64,000 nucleotides of DNA, from positions 96,666-160,665 of the forward strand of contig JAUICQ010000004.1 in the NCBI GenBank assembly GCA_030427425.1, written 5' to 3'. The notes below the pieces were generated by a model. It did not search any database. It worked only from the letters and a program-made list of their open reading frames with translations, and was not told the DNA's origin. Positions 1 to 64,000 of this stretch are shown one piece after another (positions within the stretch are counted from its first letter, which is position 1; each line of letters begins with the position of its first letter). Both the position numbers and the translations under genes were made by a program. The DNA comes from Fimbriimonadia bacterium (GTDB taxonomy: Bacteria; Armatimonadota; Fimbriimonadia; Fimbriimonadales; Fimbriimonadaceae).

Positions 1-573
1 GATGTTTATTGCAAATGGCCAAAACTATTGTCTGCTTTGCCTGTGGCACTGGAAGAACTTGACTTAAGCGATAGTACATTTAAAGGCAAAGGAGCAGAGC
101 ATTTCAGTAGTTTTAGAAATCTTCGCAGATTAAATCTAAGTAATTGTTTTCTAAGAGATCACTATCAACATATTCTGGCCTATCTACCTGAAACCCTAGA
201 AGACCTAGACTTAACTGGTACTCATCATTATTATAGTATGAAAAGTTTCAGCCGATTTGTTAATCTTCGTAGGCTGAACCTCGGTGTTGGTAGAGATCAC
301 CGGGGTAGCTTTAGTATGATGGATAATGTCGGTATAATCGACGATCTAGGCTTAAGCGGTACTAATTATAGAGGTCAAGGAGTAGAGGGTTTGAGTAGAT
401 TTAGAAATCTTCGCACATTAAACCTCAGTAAGTGTCGTGATGTGCAGAATTGGTCTGATCTGCTGTCTGCCTTGCCATCCACGTTGGAAGAACTGGACTT
501 AAGGGGTAGTAATTATGGAGGCGAAGGAGTAGAGCATTTGAGTAGATTTAGAAATCTTCGTATTATAAATTAA
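1..573 (+). CDS. Leucine-rich repeat protein, 5' end outside window
   Basis: The reading frame is open to base 1, so the start lies to the left; the first visible residues (DVYCKWPKLL) already belong to a repeat. It consists of LRRs in pairs, with a period near 48 residues built from LPxxLEELDLSxS and LSRFRNLRxLNLSxC halves. The pattern looks like eukaryote-type LRRs used for protein binding. It stops abruptly inside a repeat (RNLRIIN then TAA), without a capping region, so the 3' end may be truncated. A second LRR protein with different repeats lies at 44466-45731. Binding partner and location cannot be told from this fragment. Confidence 0.85.
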   Translation, partial: DVYCKWPKLLSALPVALEELDLSDSTFKGKGAEHFSSFRNLRRLNLSNCFLRDHYQHILAYLPETLEDLDLTGTHHYYSMKSFSRFVNLRRLNLGVGRDHRGSFSMMDNVGIIDDLGLSGTNYRGQGVEGLSRFRNLRTLNLSKCRDVQNWSDLLSALPSTLEELDLRGSNYGGEGVEHLSRFRNLRIIN

Positions 574-584
574 AGCAGGTAATC

Positions 585-929
585 CTATATCTTACTCGCA
601 AGAGGATTCCGCCAATTGCGCCATCTGGAGCAGAATAAGTTTCCTCTTCCTGCAGCAACCACGCTGAGATCGTCATCATCTAAAGATTGATGTGTGCGCT
701 CTATTTTTTTAGGTAGCGTAATAACAAAATTATATGGAGATGTAGACATTAAACATTGTAAATTAACTTCTGGATCAAATTTTATACCCATATATACAGC
801 AAAAGCATTATGAGGATCTCTTAAGAAATAGTTTGTGAGTTCTGGTCTCTGCATCAGCAATGTTTTAAGTACAGTTTGTATCTGATATTGTTGAAGGATT
901 AACGTTGTTGTATCTATATATTGAGGCAT
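585..929 (-). CDS. Orphan NHLP (nitrile hydratase-like leader peptide) RiPP precursor
   Basis: A 114-residue protein with the architecture of NHLP-type precursors of ribosomally made, modified peptides. Residues about 20-75 resemble the nitrile hydratase alpha-like leader: a helical stretch, then FLRDPHNAFAVYMGI, then a beta segment ending FVITLPKK. An acidic LDDDDLSVVAAG segment follows, corresponding to the usual LSDEELEAVAGG cleavage region. The remaining short basic tail, RGNLFCSRWRNWRNPLASKI, has one Cys and three Trp/Phe residues and would be the core peptide. The ATG has a GGAG ribosome site 8 bases upstream. No modifying enzyme, protease or peptide exporter is visible nearby; such genes could lie left of the window or elsewhere. 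Assignment is by motif reading only. Confidence 0.72.
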   Translation of the reverse strand: MPQYIDTTTLILQQYQIQTVLKTLLMQRPELTNYFLRDPHNAFAVYMGIKFDPEVNLQCLMSTSPYNFVITLPKKIERTHQSLDDDDLSVVAAGRGNLFCSRWRNWRNPLASKI

Positions 930-1039
930 CTTTTAAACTCCATGAAATAAAATGTAACTATATTGCAATTATTCCATGTATTATAATAGATGTTGATATA
1001 TTCTATTGAAAACTGGAAAATTTGATGAGGAGCCAAATA

Positions 1040-1113
1040 TGGCTGCCGGACTAGGACTCGAACCTAGACTGACGGCACCAAAAACCGCTGTCCTGCCATT
1101 AGACGATCCGGCA
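1040..1113 (-). tRNA. tRNA-Gln (anticodon TTG)
   Basis: Read on the minus strand it folds into a full cloverleaf. The acceptor TGCCGGA pairs with TCCGGCA, the D stem is GTCT/GGAC, and the T arm is CTAGG-TTCGAGT-CCTAG. The anticodon loop TTTTGGT gives anticodon TTG for glutamine CAA codons. The 3' CCA is encoded (bases 1040-1042). Confidence 0.95.
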
Positions 1114-11103: not shown

Positions 11104-11143
11104 TGAATCTACCAAGTGTGGGATATATATATATATATTTTCC

Positions 11144-11215
11144 TTTCTGGATCCCGTTCCAGGATGACGGCCTAGTGGAGAGGCGAGTCGGTAGTATTGG
11201 CCCCACATGTGACAG
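11144..11215 (+). repeat. 72-bp repeat, copy 1 of 3
   Basis: Begins TTTCTGGATCCCGTTCCAGG, with an internal hairpin CTGGATCCCGTTCCAG, followed by ATGACGG and a shared tail ending CCCCACATGTGACAG. Nearly identical copies lie at 11430-11501 and 11608-11678. A TA tract precedes it at 11124-11138. Confidence 0.9.
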
Positions 11216-11269
11216 TCCGTCTGCTTAGATTGTTATTCCGAAAAGGGCAAAAACAAGGTCATGGACCCC

Positions 11270-11400
11270 GAGCTCCGTCCTCGAAGGGGAAATACACAAT
11301 GTCGGGGCGACATTTGCCAATCATCTCCCCACGTCCGGTCATCCTCGAAGGGGATCCATATTTTGAAGAAAATCACCAAGTGTGGGTGAATAAAGATGCC
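11270..11400 (+). repeat. Composite of dispersed short palindromic repeats
   Basis: Contains the family of units GTCCTCGAAGGGGA (11277-11290), GTCGGGGCGACATTTGCCAA, CATCCTCGAAGGGGATCC (about 11341-11358) and ATCACCAAGTGTGGG. The same units in the same order recur at 62.9-63.6 kb. It codes for nothing recognisable. Confidence 0.8.
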
Positions 11401-11429
11401 TGGATCCGGGCGATTTTATTTTTCTTTTT

Positions 11430-11501
11430 TTCTGGATCCCGTTCCAGGATGACGGTCTGGTTTGAGAGGCGAGTCGGTAGTATTGGCCCCACATGTGACA
11501 G
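11430..11501 (+). repeat. 72-bp repeat, copy 2 of 3
   Basis: Same unit as at 11144, with changes such as GGTCTGGTTTG for GGCCTAGTGG. It is followed by the dispersed unit ACCAAGTGTGGG and then ACCACCGTCTTCCCGGCG at about 11550. Confidence 0.9.
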
Positions 11502-11607
11502 ACAATCTACCAAGTGTGGGATGAGAAACAAACGATAACTCACCGACTACCACCGTCTTCCCGGCGTTTTAAAGATGCCGGTGTCCGGCCGTTTTTATAT
11601 TTTTTTC

Positions 11608-11678
11608 TTTCTGGATCCCGTTCCAGGATGACGGCCTAGTGGAGAGGCGAGTCGGTAGTATTGGCCTCACATTTGACA
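11608..11678 (+). repeat. 72-bp repeat, copy 3 of 3
   Basis: Third copy, with CTCACATTTGACA at the end in place of CCCACATGTGACA. Its spacing from the first two copies is about 286 and 178 bases. The island fills the whole gap between the exported protein and the duplicated lipoprotein gene. Confidence 0.9.
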
Positions 11679-11754
11679 CGATAACAGTGATAAGTAGCAT
11701 AGATCCAGCATAATAATCAGTTTTTATTTTTTTGTTAAATCCAATGATAAATAG

Positions 11755-12140
11755 TATGAAGATAATTTATCTATACAAAATTGCAATAATGATCGGTGCG
11801 GTAAGCACTATGGTCGGATGCGGTGGTAGTAGCGCAGATAAGAGTAGTACCAGTGAAGTGGAATCTGTAATTAGTGATCAGAATAATGGTGGAACTTCAG
11901 TTAAAGTGCAAGCTCAGAATACTACCCAAGAAAATCCAAATCAAAAGTATGAAGATAATTTATCTATACAAAATTGCAATAATGATTGGTGCGGTAAGCA
12001 CTATGGTCGGATGCGGTGGTAGTAGCGCAGATAAGCGTAGTACCAGTGAAGTGGAATCTGTAATTAGTGATCAGAATAATGGTGGAACTTCAGTTAAAGT
12101 GCAAGCTCAGAATACTACCCAAGAAAATCCAAATCAAAAG
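11755..12140 (+). repeat. 193-bp tandem duplication (two copies)
   Basis: Copies 11755-11947 and 11948-12140 are directly adjacent and differ at only two positions seen by eye (ATCGG/ATTGG and AAGAG/AAGCG). Both begin TATGAAGATAATTTATC and end AAATCAAAAG. The near identity points to a recent event. Confidence 0.95.
11756..12022 (+). pseudogene. Frameshifted 5' copy of a small lipoprotein gene
   Basis: This copy starts with MKIIYLYKIAIMIGAVSTMV and a lipobox GCGG, the same as the intact gene that follows. After the duplicated 193-bp unit it runs out of frame into the second copy (tail YEDNLSIQNC) and stops at 12022. It would make a lipoprotein with a nonsense tail. Since 193 is not a multiple of three, the duplication itself caused the break. 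Whether it is expressed is unknown. Confidence 0.8.
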
Positions 12141-26044: not shown

Positions 26045-28129
26045 ATGAACGATTTTAAGAACTTTTTCAAGAATACAGATATCATACTTGGGTTAGCATT
26101 GTTGCTTATTGTCTCGATGCTTATCCTGCCTATTCCGCACTGGATATTGGATACCGGACTAGTTATTGCGATTGCAACTTCCGTTATTATTATCCTTACA
26201 TCTGTGAACATCGACGATCCGCTAAAACTTAGCATATTCCCCTCTTTGCTCTTAATCTCTACGCTTTTTAGGCTAGCCTTAAGTATTACGGCCACTAAAC
26301 TAATTTTAGGGACTGGTGACGGTGGAAAGGTTATCGAAACGTTCGGTAAGTTTGTTATGGGTGGCGACTTCGTTGTGGGGTTTGTTGCCTTCTTAATTCT
26401 TGTTATCGTCCAGTTTATCGTTATCACGAATGGTGCTGGTCGTGTGTCTGAAGTTGTTGCTAGGTTTACCTTGGACGCTATGCCTGGTAAACAGATGGCT
26501 ATCGATGCCGATCTTGCTGCAGGATTAATCGATGAGAAGATGGCTAAAGAGCGTCGTAAGCACATTAAGAAAGAAGCCGACTTCTATGGTGCGATGGATG
26601 GTGCGAGTAAGTTTGTTAAAGGTGATGCTATTGCGTCTATTTTAATTATCGTTGTTAACATTATTGGTGGCTTTGCAGTAGGATTCTTCCGAGGGGAGGG
26701 AGATGCTAGCTATGTAATTAAGACCTATACACTACTATCTGTTGGTGAAGGTATTGTTGCTCAGATTCCTGCCCTGTTAATATCCACTTCAAGCGGTCTG
26801 TTGGTTACACGTGCTGGTCAGGAAAATACAATGGGTGGAGCGGTGGTCGCTCAGATCTTAGCTCAGCCTAAAGCGCTTATGTCAGCAGGGATCGCACTTG
26901 TTCTTTTTGCTTTTATTCCCGGATTCCCGACCCCCATCTTCCTTGCGATAGGTGGTGGTTTGCTGGGATTGTCTAGATACGTTCAGATGAATCCTATGCT
27001 GTTAGAATTAGCTGAGAGAGGCGGGGTGTTTCCAGAAGAAGAAGCTCCTGTAGAAACAAAAGAACAGGATAGCAATAGTCCGGAATCTGTAATGTCACTG
27101 TTGGATGTGGATGCCCTAGAGATTGAGGTAGGATATGCACTGACGAGATTGGCGGATCCGCGTGTTGGTGGTGATTTAACCGAACGTATAGCTGGTATGC
27201 GAAAGCAGCTTGCTGGAGAGATGGGGTTTGTGGTTCCTAGCGTTAGAATCCGTGACAGCGTCGTATTAAACTCTAATGAATACTGTATTAAGGTTCGGGG
27301 CGAGGAGGTCGCACGGGGTACGTCAGAGGTAGACATGTTGATGGCCTTGGATAATGGAACGGTAATAGAAGAAGTGCCAGGAAAACCGACCAAAGAGCCA
27401 GTGTTCGGAATAGATGCTTTATGGATAAATGAGAAGTTTAAAGACGAAGCCCTTCTGAATGGATATACCATCATTGAACCAACTGCGGTAATGGCTACTC
27501 ACCTGAATGAAGTAATTAAACAGCATGCTGCGGAGCTATTAACTAGACAGGATGTACAAGGCTTAATCGATAATGTAAAAGAGAGAAATAAAGCAGTTGT
27601 AGATGAACTAATACCTAACTTGGTTTCTGTTGGTGATGTTCAGAAAGTATTGCAGCATCTGCTTCGTGAAAGAGTGCCTATTAAGGATATGGTGGCGATT
27701 CTGGAAACCATGGCCGACTATGCTCCTAAGACAAAAGAGCCCGATTCTCTTGGGGAAGTAGTAAGGGCTGCTATCTGCAGAACTGTTACTGGGATGTATG
27801 TAAATGAGGATAATAAACTTTACTGTATAACCCTTGCTCCATCATTAGAAAAGCAGCTAGGTGATAATGTTCAGACTAACTCTTTTGGAACCACTATCGG
27901 GATGGATCCCGAACTCCAGAAGACCTTAGTTCAGAAAATTGAGGATGCCTATGAGAGGGCAGAGACCTCTAACTTTAGTAATCCAATACTATTATGTAAT
28001 TCTCAAATACGTCTAGGTATGCATAGACTTATTTCACGATATATGCCTAAATTGCCAGTGGTAGCTTTTAATGAAATTACTCCTAGGGCAGAAGTCGAGT
28101 TTGTTCAACAAGTTAAATTAGATGCTTAA
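26045..28129 (+). CDS. flhA: Flagellar biosynthesis protein FlhA
   Basis: A 694-residue protein of the FHIPEP family, the export-gate subunit of the flagellar type III secretion system in the inner membrane. It shows LFRLALSITATKLIL near residue 79, GAGRVSEVVARFTLDAMPGKQMAID near 137, eight N-terminal membrane helices and a full cytoplasmic domain (EVGYALTRLADPRVGGDL onward). Length and sequence style fit FlhA better than the injectisome SctV. It is alone: neither flhB nor fliP/Q/R, nor any other flagellar gene, lies nearby. It is flanked by repeat-rich gaps. The frame is intact, so it is probably under selection. Confidence 0.95.
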   Translation: MNDFKNFFKNTDIILGLALLLIVSMLILPIPHWILDTGLVIAIATSVIIILTSVNIDDPLKLSIFPSLLLISTLFRLALSITATKLILGTGDGGKVIETFGKFVMGGDFVVGFVAFLILVIVQFIVITNGAGRVSEVVARFTLDAMPGKQMAIDADLAAGLIDEKMAKERRKHIKKEADFYGAMDGASKFVKGDAIASILIIVVNIIGGFAVGFFRGEGDASYVIKTYTLLSVGEGIVAQIPALLISTSSGLLVTRAGQENTMGGAVVAQILAQPKALMSAGIALVLFAFIPGFPTPIFLAIGGGLLGLSRYVQMNPMLLELAERGGVFPEEEAPVETKEQDSNSPESVMSLLDVDALEIEVGYALTRLADPRVGGDLTERIAGMRKQLAGEMGFVVPSVRIRDSVVLNSNEYCIKVRGEEVARGTSEVDMLMALDNGTVIEEVPGKPTKEPVFGIDALWINEKFKDEALLNGYTIIEPTAVMATHLNEVIKQHAAELLTRQDVQGLIDNVKERNKAVVDELIPNLVSVGDVQKVLQHLLRERVPIKDMVAILETMADYAPKTKEPDSLGEVVRAAICRTVTGMYVNEDNKLYCITLAPSLEKQLGDNVQTNSFGTTIGMDPELQKTLVQKIEDAYERAETSNFSNPILLCNSQIRLGMHRLISRYMPKLPVVAFNEITPRAEVEFVQQVKLDA

Positions 28130-56140: not shown

Positions 56141-56488
56141 ATAGACGTGTAAATATATATAATCCCTCGTTACTACTTGAACTCACACTTAGGAGTTTTT
56201 GTCCAAATGTGAAACATCGCTTCTCCGTCACACCGAGATACGTATATCTCCCTTTCGAGGACGGTGCTCGGTGACCATGACCCGATTAATACTAAAAACT
56301 AATATCACCAAGTATGGGGTCAAAAACACTAAGGAAAAATAATATTGATAATAGACTGGATTCCGTTCCGGAATGACAAAACAGTCTCGGGTTCACAAAC
56401 TAACAATACCCCCCTGACTACCACCGTCTTCCCGGCGTTTTAACGATGAGTTTATCCTCGAAGGGGAGCTCCGTCCATATTTTTTAAA
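56141..56488. repeat. Mosaic of dispersed repeat units
   Basis: In order: CTCACACTTAGGAG, TTTCGAGGACGG, CACCAAGTATGGGGTC, AATAATATTGATAATAGACTGGATTCCGTTCCGGAATGAC (about 56339-56377), and ACCACCGTCTTCCCGGCG followed by TTTATCCTCGAAGGGGA. The order and sequence match the island at 62.9-63.6 kb. No gene is seen. Confidence 0.8.
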
Positions 56489-56634
56489 ATAAATTCTTCA
56501 CGTTAATGAATTTAATTTTAACATGAAGAATCCCCTATACAGGGTCATTCTCGAAGGGAATCCAGTGCCCTATTATTTGCCTATAGCAGAACAGTTATCA
56601 AAAAAACATAACAATTGCGTGTTTTTTTTTTTTT
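56489..56634 (+). repeat. Repeated leader, copy 2, with a 13-T tract
   Basis: The same block as at 55627, displaced by 862 bases, but with 13 T after GCGTG where copy 1 has 9 and the copy before 63796 has 12. The lipoprotein ATG lies 27 bases beyond the T tract, a place where length changes could alter expression. Confidence 0.92.
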
Positions 56635-56660
56635 CATTGATTCCAAAAATAAGTAATGTG

Positions 56661-57119
56661 ATGAAGAGTTTTGCGTATAAATTTGGAATAATAGTAGGAA
56701 CAATCGGCTTAGTGTCTGGTTGTGGAAGTAGTAGTGGCAGTAGTGTTAGTGGAGCAGAAACTGAATTAGTATCAGGTTCAGTTCAGAAAGAAGGTGTTGC
56801 TGGAACAGGTACTAGTGTCAGGACTGAGTCCTGGGATACTACTACTTACTTAGTGGGAACTAAGTTTACTAATAAAGAACTTACCTCATCTCAAATCTAT
56901 GATCTAATTGGAGATAAAAACTTTAAACTTTATGCTGGGGATTACAATGTATCCATAAGTGCGTGGAGTAATGCCTTTAGTATTGATAATAAAATAGGGT
57001 TTTGGCCAAAAGATAAGTTTGGTGATATGTTAAATAACTATAATATCGACAAGAGTACAGTTTTTAGTCTGTATAAAGATATGCATATACCAGACGATGT
57101 ACCAAATTACTGGTACTAG
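56661..57119 (+). CDS. Lipoprotein with Ser/Gly-rich linker
   Basis: 152 residues from the ATG at 56661. MKSFAYKFGIIVGTIGLVSG is followed by Cys in the lipobox, then GSSSGSSVSG and a small domain (SSQIYDLIGDKNFKLYAGDY, IDNKIGFWPKDKFGDML). A longer open frame from 56523 runs through the repeated leader and is not credible. The partial gene at 63796 has almost the same first 40 residues. The family is unknown. Confidence 0.8.
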   Translation: MKSFAYKFGIIVGTIGLVSGCGSSSGSSVSGAETELVSGSVQKEGVAGTGTSVRTESWDTTTYLVGTKFTNKELTSSQIYDLIGDKNFKLYAGDYNVSISAWSNAFSIDNKIGFWPKDKFGDMLNNYNIDKSTVFSLYKDMHIPDDVPNYWY

Positions 57120-58499: not shown

Positions 58500-58900
58500 A
58501 CTTTTAAACTATGGGCCAGAAGCTCCCCTTCGAGGACAGGCGACATTTTTAAGTTGTCGGGGTGACATTTTTGGCGTGAGGGGTGGATTCTTAAAGTATC
58601 GTCCTGCCCTCTATTGTCATCTTCGAAGGAGATCCAGTCTATTATAAATATTATTTTTCCTCATTATTTTTTTAGCCCACACTTGGTGATTATTAGTCAA
58701 ATATGGGAAGTGAATGATTAAAAGATTCTACACCTTTCGGTGTGGCGGTGAAGCGAGAGGAGTGTAAAAGCAGTGCTCCACTTTTGGCCAAAAACTCCTA
58801 AGTGTGGGCTGAAATAGGAAAGCACTGTCGTCCCGAGATTGTGTATAGAGCCTGTCCTCGAAGGGGTAGATATATGACCTTCTTTAAAAAAGATCTTCAG
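58500..58900. repeat. Repeat island in a 619-base gap
   Basis: Contains CCCCTTCGAGGACAGG, GTCGGGGTGACATTTT, CATCTTCGAAGGAGATCCAG, GCCCACACTTGGTGATTA, ACACCTTTCGGTGTGG, AAGCGAGAGGAGTGTAAAA (also seen at about 55582) and TAAGTGTGGGCTG. From 58900 to 59081 nothing is recognised except the presumed upstream region of the next gene. Confidence 0.75.
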
Positions 58901-62806: not shown

Positions 62807-62839
62807 GTATTTAATACCTTATCGTAATGGGTAAATAAA

Positions 62840-63680
62840 TTACCAAATGCGGGTTCCGAAACTAACAATAATCACCTAACTACCACCGTCTTCCCGGCGT
62901 TATAAAGAAGGTCATGGACCCCGCTCCGTCCTCGAAGGGGAACGATATACAATGTCGGGGCGACATTTTAGAGGTGGGGCTAAAGATATTACTCTTCTCC
63001 CCACTCGGTCGTCATCCTCGAAGGGGATCCACACTTAGAAGAAAATCACCAAGTGTGGGTTCACAAACAAACAATGATGAAAAATAATATTGATAATAGA
63101 CTGGATTCCGATTCCGGAATGACAAAACAGCGGAGGGCTCACAAACTAACAATAACCCATTAACTACCACCGTCTTCCCGGCGTTTTAACGATGAGTTTA
63201 TCCTCGAAGGGGAAGGATATACAATCTCGGGGCGACATTTTAGAGGTGGGGCTAAAGATATTACTCTTCTCCCCACTCGGTCGTCATCCTCGAAGGGGAT
63301 CCACATATTGATATATCATCACCAAGTGTGGGTTCAAAGACAATGAGGAAAAATAATATTGATAATAGACTGGATTCCGATTCCGGAATGACAAAACAGC
63401 GGCGGGTTCCGAAACAAACAATAATACCCTAACTATCACCGTCTTCCCGGCGTTTTAACGATGAGTTTATCCTCGAAGGGGAAGGATATACAATCTCGGG
63501 GCGACATTTGCCAATCATCTCCCCACGTTCGGTCATCCTAGAATGGGATCCACACTTAGAGGAAAATCACCAAGTGTGGGTTCCGAAACAAACAATAATC
63601 CCCTAATTACTACCGTCTTCCCGGCGTTTTAACGATGCCGGGATCCAGCCATTTTACACTATAGGCCAACTACCGGAACT
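62840..63680 (+). repeat. Tandem array of about 0.28-kb composite repeats
   Basis: The unit ACCACCGTCTTCCCGGCG recurs at 62882, 63166, about 63435 and about 63609, with spacings near 284, 269 and 174. Between them the same order returns: TCCTCGAAGGGGA, TCGGGGCGACATTT, GAGGTGGGGCTAAAGATATT, CATCCTCGAAGGGGATCCAC, ATCACCAAGTGTGGGTTC, and the hairpin GACTGGATTCCGATTCCGG. No protein-coding frame is supported. Confidence 0.93.
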
Positions 63681-63769
63681 CCGTCCTCGAAGGGAATCCA
63701 TATCCCTAATATTTGCTTTTCGCAGGACAGGTATCATAAAAACATAACAATTGCGTGTTTTTTTTTTTT
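63681..63769 (+). repeat. Repeated leader, copy 3 (partial), with a 12-T tract
   Basis: GTCCTCGAAGGGAATCCATA, then a diverged middle, then ACATAACAATTGCGTG and 12 T. The following 26 bases up to the ATG (CATTGATTCCAAAAATAAGT onward) match the region after copy 2 almost exactly. Confidence 0.85.
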
Positions 63770-63795
63770 CATTGATTCCAAAAATAAGTAATGTG

Positions 63796-64000
63796 ATGAA
63801 GAGTTTCGCTTATAAATTTGGAATAATAGTAGGAACAATCGGTTTTGTGTCTGGTTATGGAAGTAGTAGTGGTAGTAGTGTTAGTGGAGCAAAAACTGAA
63901 TCAGTATCAGGTTCAGTGCAGAAAGAAGATGCTGCAGGAACAGGTTATATCGAGAGTGAGAGAGACTCTGAACTAAAGAATGTAAAAGAATTTAGTAATA
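63796..64000 (+). CDS. Lipoprotein paralogue with lost lipobox cysteine, 3' end outside window
   Basis: The frame is open to the right edge. MKSFAYKFGIIVGTIGFVSG is followed by Tyr (TAT) where the copy at 56661 has Cys (TGT). GSSSGSSVSGAKTESVSGSV then follows with few changes, before the sequences diverge (GYIESERDSELKNVKEF). Without the cysteine the protein cannot be lipidated at this site. It may be a decaying copy or a protein with another fate. No stop or frameshift is visible in the 68 codons seen. Confidence 0.78.
   Translation, partial: MKSFAYKFGIIVGTIGFVSGYGSSSGSSVSGAKTESVSGSVQKEDAAGTGYIESERDSELKNVKEFSN

Follow-up and report, generated by a model that had tools for sequence, protein, structure and literature searches.

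The 114-residue protein encoded at positions 585–929 of the window (the whole stretch of 64,000 nucleotides analysed here) is, as judged from its sequence, a divergent NHLP-like precursor, and it is probably not an orphan, because the same genome encodes a complete NHLM exporter on contig C4 and four further precursors on other contigs. A preliminary description of the window had called it an orphan RiPP precursor. With these results, the apparent orphan becomes one likely substrate of a defined system with one exporter, five precursors and one candidate modifying enzyme; calling an NHLP precursor an orphan from a window alone is unsafe. The type of leader and the type of exporter were already known; what is new is the window protein as a further NHLP-like precursor.

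The precursor gene and its leader family

The reverse complement of 585–929 is an open frame running from an ATG to a stop codon, while frame 1 of the plus strand over the same interval contains several stops and is not open. The features of the gene are listed in Table 1. An acidic processing region of the double-glycine type, LDDDDLSVVAAG, is present as had been described, as is the short basic C-terminal core: the 20-residue tail RGNLFCSRWRNWRNPLASKI that follows contains one Cys, two Trp, four Arg and one Lys. The AlphaFold model had a mean pLDDT of 65.7 overall, with block means of 83–88 for residues 11–50.

Table 1. Features of the precursor gene, in window coordinates.
Feature	Position	Strand	Basis
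NHLP-like precursor gene, 114 aa	585..929; ATG at 929, stop 585–587	minus	ORF translation; TIGR03793 E 0.0017; paralogue profile 28.9 bits
Leader, codons 1–94; predicted helices 7–27, 31–37, 39–47	648..929	minus	Site position and AlphaFold model
Putative export/processing motif LDDDDLSVVAAG, codons 83–94: L(−12), L(−7), V(−4), A(−2), G(−1)	648..683	minus	Motif in 12/12 precursors
Predicted core peptide, codons 95–114, 20 aa, net +5	588..647	minus	Translation
GGAG, ribosome-binding-site-like (putative role), 8 nt 5′ of ATG	938..941	minus	Upstream sequence

A tRNA-Gln gene lies upstream of the precursor (1040–1113, minus strand). A promoter scan of 500–1320 was uninformative (7 sites against 4.9 expected, no terminator). 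On the opposite strand, a leucine-rich-repeat (LRR) gene converges on the precursor stop codon and ends inside a repeat, 11 bp away. Its product of 1,089 residues occupies window positions 1–573 and continues upstream (L021 11970–15239), with repeats of about 48–52 residues near its end. Elsewhere in the window there are interspersed DNA repeats, about 74–98% identical and in mosaic order (11132–11678, 56298–56810, 58614–58697 and 62837–63945), which recur on two other contigs (L022 6196–6440 and 10266–10483; L023 19430–19720), and a tandem duplication at 11737–12140, whose copies recur about every 195 bases and are 97% identical.

TIGR03793 was the sole NCBIfam family reported for the window protein (E = 0.0017, 18.2 bits). 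The score does not reach the curated cut-off of 50.9, and we therefore term the protein NHLP-like rather than a formal member of TIGR03793. A Pfam scan returned nothing relevant and no match to PF02979 (nitrile hydratase), so that of the two profiles proposed as a check in the preliminary description, one was matched below its cut-off and the other was not. Within the genus, the best TIGR03793 score was 48.7 bits; neither of the two genomes has a match over the cut-off, and all 12 precursors described below fall short of it, although every one of them matches at E ≤ 0.1 when scanned singly. PF02979 was matched at E ≤ 0.1 by three of the 12, the first at 3.8e-6 and 26.9 bits, just short of the cut-off of 27.2.

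The window protein was also compared with a leader profile built from ten paralogues, from which it and its counterpart in the sister genome had been left out. It scored 28.9 bits. Among 4,000 controls (3,999 shuffled versions of these two proteins plus one reversed sequence), none scored higher than 10.2 bits. The preliminary description was right about the nitrile hydratase-like leader. A profile of all 12 precursors matched PDB 9cjx (NHLP leader peptide family natural product) at 7.3e-11, and it also matched the alpha chains of nitrile hydratases, at 1.2e-5. In a Foldseek search with the predicted model, the top two PDB matches were the NHLP/proteusin precursors 9cjx and 8tb1, with non-significant E values of 0.6 and 1.3.

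The pattern [LIVM]x4Lx2[IVLM]x[GA][GA] precedes the core in all 12 precursors and was present in 68 of 24,000 shuffled proteins. At the cleavage site the window protein has AAG, with Ala at −2. GG is the pair in the other 11, including one with two sites, of which the first reads GA and the second GG. Hydrophobic residues at −12, −7 and −4 ahead of a double glycine are also the features that C39 peptidases recognise. Core lengths range from 20 to 93 residues across the 12, as is typical of a hypervariable core, and the window core is the shortest. The TIGR03793 match, the score against the paralogue profile, the counterpart in the sister genome and a leader pN below pS together identify the open frame as a genuine gene, beyond chance.

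Paralogues, exporter and candidate enzymes

A whole-genome search for other NHLP leaders, which the preliminary description had proposed, found five NHLP-like precursors in the source genome (1.51 Mb, 19 contigs), on contigs C7, C8, C15, C18 and C19, all separate from the exporter contig C4. The sister genome, the sole other genome of the genus among those searched, contains seven (n = 12). The window protein itself found two paralogues in the source genome and a counterpart in the sister genome (43% identical, E = 1.5e-18). A six-frame search with TIGR03793 at E ≤ 1 gave four places in the source genome and six in the sister genome; the window protein and its counterpart were both absent from this list. 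At this threshold 5 of 14 control genomes also matched, and at E ≤ 0.001 none did. Among 5.8 billion proteins at E ≤ 1 the window protein matched only itself, in a search that needs shared five-residue words and that missed the sister-genome counterpart too. An alignment of all 12 matched six proteins in the same collection: four of them can be assigned to the source and sister genomes, and the other two lie together on a further contig. Matches to the window protein in 14 further genomes of 61 (E 0.013–0.62) were discarded as chance; the leader was found at E ≤ 0.001 only in the source and sister genomes.

On contig C15 of both genomes the precursor is followed by the same two genes (L043 9554–12334 in the source genome, L027 9454–12243 in the sister genome), enoyl-CoA-hydratase-like and biotin-carboxylase-like by eye, and this precursor pair looks syntenic despite its differing cores. 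The sister genome also has a tandem of NHLP-like precursors (L064 9220–10498), the second of which (182 residues) bears the processing motif twice.

A search for C39 peptidases gave a single match in each genome, which in the source genome lies on C4. The exporter there is a three-gene unit in which HlyD (TIGR03794, 169.3 bits; cut-off 156.2), ABC1 (TIGR03796, 969.7; 853.3) and ABC2 (TIGR03797, 787.3; 709.4) all score over their cut-offs. In the sister genome two of the three do so (ABC1 921.8, ABC2 786.8), with HlyD just short of its cut-off at 149.2 against 156.2. The three proteins are 44–57% identical between the genomes. ABC1, encoded at L041 9243–11438 in the source genome, has its C39 domain nearly end to end (116.9 bits over positions 3–132 of 133), and the ABC1 proteins retain QIEA(V/I)ECG, NH(F/Y)(L/V)VVEG and YLNDPA, with QIEAVECG and NHFLVVEG among the variants; we take the QIEAVECG, NHFLVVEG and YLNDPA stretches to be the C39 catalytic surroundings. 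Each genome encodes one NHLM exporter unit with an intact-looking C39 domain. Within the window, there was no match to the C39, YcaO, LanC-like or radical-SAM families, in agreement with the preliminary description, which had found no exporter or maturation enzyme there. Haft et al. (2010; PMC2887384) found that the distribution of NHLP leaders follows the NHLM exporter more closely than it follows any tailoring enzyme, and that the leaders may sit far from the export genes.

Leaders at E ≤ 0.001 were found in 2 of the 113 genomes of the order, and ABC1 over its cut-off in the same 2 of 113, as well as in 2 of the 291 genomes of the phylum. Both genomes with leaders and ABC1 belong to the source genus. 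Since leaders and ABC1 are confined to this genus, the simplest reading is that the NHLP-like/NHLM system was probably gained there. Three other transporters among the 291 genomes are of the C39 type and score about 600 bits to TIGR03796, under the cut-off (open frames of 1,008–1,061 residues); the 9.4 to 14.0 kb around each gave neither an FkbM match (E ≤ 1e-3) nor one to the NHLP profile (E ≤ 1). Next to a C39-type transporter below the NHLM cut-off in another genome of the family (G014), there is a 67-residue open frame (L087 5928–6131) with the double-glycine-like sequence LSQEEMDEVKGG and a Thr-rich tail, by eye; this is perhaps a different exporter–substrate pair.

The source genome, at 1.5 Mb, is near the lower end of the range for the order (1.4–6.5 Mb), in which the genomes of 1.4–1.7 Mb are 65–73% complete; host association, from genome size, is a guess. 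Literature searches on the sister genome and on Fimbriimonadia with small genomes found nothing pertinent. This 1.5-Mb genome also encodes an FHIPEP-family export apparatus protein (window 26045–28129, 829 bits); genes elsewhere (L021, L027 and L064) look flagellar by eye, which favours a flagellum over an injection system.

A genome-wide search for maturation enzymes had likewise been proposed. Searches for YcaO and for LanC-like proteins found none in either genome. There are seven radical-SAM proteins in each genome; those of the source genome have as their best matches MiaB, MtaB, HemW, lipoyl synthase, MqnE (slightly short of its cut-off, 417.9 bits vs 434.55), MqnC and RlmN, and look like housekeeping families. 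No enzyme that would define a RiPP class was thus found among YcaO and LanC-like proteins in both genomes or the radical-SAM families of the source genome, and the term RiPP is unproven. An FkbM-type methyltransferase gene does lie next to the exporter genes in both genomes, in divergent orientation and separated from them by 118 and 187 nt. It was the only tailoring candidate seen among the enzyme families looked at. The two FkbM proteins score 74.7 and 83.2 bits against TIGR01444 (cut-off 37.7) and are 61–62% identical. At E ≤ 1e-12, three other genomes of 113 matched, with at most 55 bits, and among 5.8 billion proteins at E ≤ 1e-30 there were two relatives beyond the source and sister genomes. 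The sequence had no match among solved structures at E ≤ 0.001.

Proposed export route and alternative readings

We consider it likely, from the sequence comparisons, that the leader hands the basic core to the NHLM exporter on the other contig. The 94-residue leader would direct the 20-residue core to the single NHLM-type exporter, the C39 peptidase domain of ABC1 would cleave the precursor after Ala-Ala-Gly (residue 94) during export, and the released peptide would be little or not modified. Support for pairing this exporter with the window precursor comes from the co-occurrence of leaders and exporter in the same genomes; the cleavage site and the departure of the peptide with few or no modifications are predictions. 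Candidate roles of the released peptide are antagonism, signalling and action on a host. The earlier proposal that the peptide is either modified in trans or used unmodified can be kept. The genus would offer a possible setting in which the exporter secretes peptides on its own, with none of the customary RiPP enzymes. On a broader and rather unlikely view, a small-genome Armatimonadota genus has gained a stripped-down proteusin-like system, with one exporter and a divergent FkbM gene, five to seven scattered precursors, and a mix of N-methylated or bare peptides; one of these would be a short basic Trp/Arg peptide, and the target might be a eukaryotic host or neighbours.

The leaders of the three counterpart pairs are 38–43% identical, and the aligned parts of their cores, covering 8 to 25 columns, are 20–28% identical. 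In the window pair, leaders 43% identical are followed by cores of 20 and 50 residues, which share 8 aligned columns and no reliable similarity; the other two pairs have leaders 38–39% identical and 25 aligned core columns at 20–28% identity. Conservation of the frame in relatives, on which the preliminary description had staked its assignment, therefore holds for the leader and not for the core. For the leader of the window gene and its counterpart, pN was 0.39 and pS 0.68 (dN/dS about 0.31); the second pair gave 0.29 and the third was saturated and gave no estimate, with synonymous sites near saturation throughout. G+C climbs from leader to core, from 0.33 to 0.46 in the window gene and from 0.30 to 0.39 in its counterpart. 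The 3′ (core) segment has no DNA copies in either genome, with only 14–15 base matches beyond itself. When its 60 bases were shuffled, 6% of the 56,215 sequences free of stops reached a net charge of +5 and 0.2% had two Trp as well, which makes the basic composition mildly unusual and is no proof of function.

The AAG site, the core without reliable similarity to that of the counterpart and the rise in G+C leave room for a recent replacement or decay of the core. The window copy may accordingly be degenerating: its leader would survive, the site (GG to AG) and the core would have degenerated or been replaced, and there would be no functional peptide. The position of the end of the LRR gene, inside a repeat and 11 bp away on the opposite strand, points in the same direction. 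However, the frame is open, with a plausible start and GGAG; the leader dN/dS is like that of the second pair; the cores of the other pairs diverge too; and the G+C rise is shared by the counterpart. The 3′ segment has no repeat copy, and an antisense origin from the LRR gene is not claimed, as the plus strand of the core resembles the repeats only slightly (best E 1.4). On balance we regard decay as rather unlikely. That the protein is no precursor at all, but a stray fragment of a nitrile hydratase alpha chain or a chance open frame, would fit its weak TIGR03793 score below the cut-off, yet is very hard to reconcile with its margin over the shuffled controls, with a processing motif found in every precursor, with an exporter in the same genome and with its lack of a Pfam nitrile hydratase match.

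A further reading, which we think possible if somewhat unlikely, makes the precursor a RiPP modified in trans: the FkbM enzyme divergent from the exporter would methylate the dispersed cores before export. Methylation in trans is possible by analogy with EreM, an FkbM-family enzyme that acts as a backbone N-methyltransferase on the proteusin pythonamide (PMC9259500; PMC11285071). The conserved position beside the exporter in both genomes, and the low scores of the matches in other genomes of the order, agree with such a role. Against this, the survey given in PMC9259500 describes the remaining FkbM enzymes from natural-product clusters as O-methyltransferases, either demonstrated or presumed; the predicted fold (mean pLDDT 67.8) has its matches among class I methyltransferases in general, for example TYW2 and COMT, and does not reveal the substrate; and one relative, P0011, has an N-terminal extension that looks TPR-like by eye. 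Whichever substrate it has, the pairing of FkbM and exporter raises the question whether EreM-like N-methylation of peptides is more widespread. In a literature search on FkbM with NHLP, PMC9505594 was the only paper listed that mentions both.

Comparison with known systems

Close to the system described here are the NHLP/NHLM systems of Haft et al. (TIGR03793 with TIGR03794, TIGR03796 and TIGR03797; PMC2887384). Shared with the systems described there are the nitrile hydratase alpha-like leader, the double-glycine-type site and the hypervariable core, along with a dedicated exporter of two ABC proteins and HlyD with C39, and precursors possibly remote from the export genes. The present system differs from that description in that no YcaO or LanC-like protein was found, all 12 precursors are below the cut-off and the window protein has AAG rather than GG.

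According to PMC12455567, an L(X)4L motif and a three-helix bundle characterise NHLP leaders such as MprE7. The window protein resembles MprE7, 9cjx and 8tb1 in its three predicted N-terminal helices and in the stretch L-DDDD-L, which is an L(X)4L motif. The MprE leaders partner a YcaO enzyme, whereas this genome has no YcaO match. With pythonamide (EreA and the FkbM-type EreM), as presented in PMC9259500, the likeness is that one system combines a leader of the proteusin type with a methyltransferase of the FkbM family. Compared to the proteusins and pythonamide as described in that source, the precursor genes here are not clustered with the enzyme, and none of the radical-SAM proteins of the source genome has a RiPP epimerase or C-methylase as its best match. 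The putative type 1 secretion systems LB2SS and LB3SS of Legionella (PMC6959600) are similar: their ABC transporters come in pairs in which one member has C39, and they are assigned to export of the NHLP type. They are described in that report from the transporter side, while in the present genomes the precursors are listed as well.
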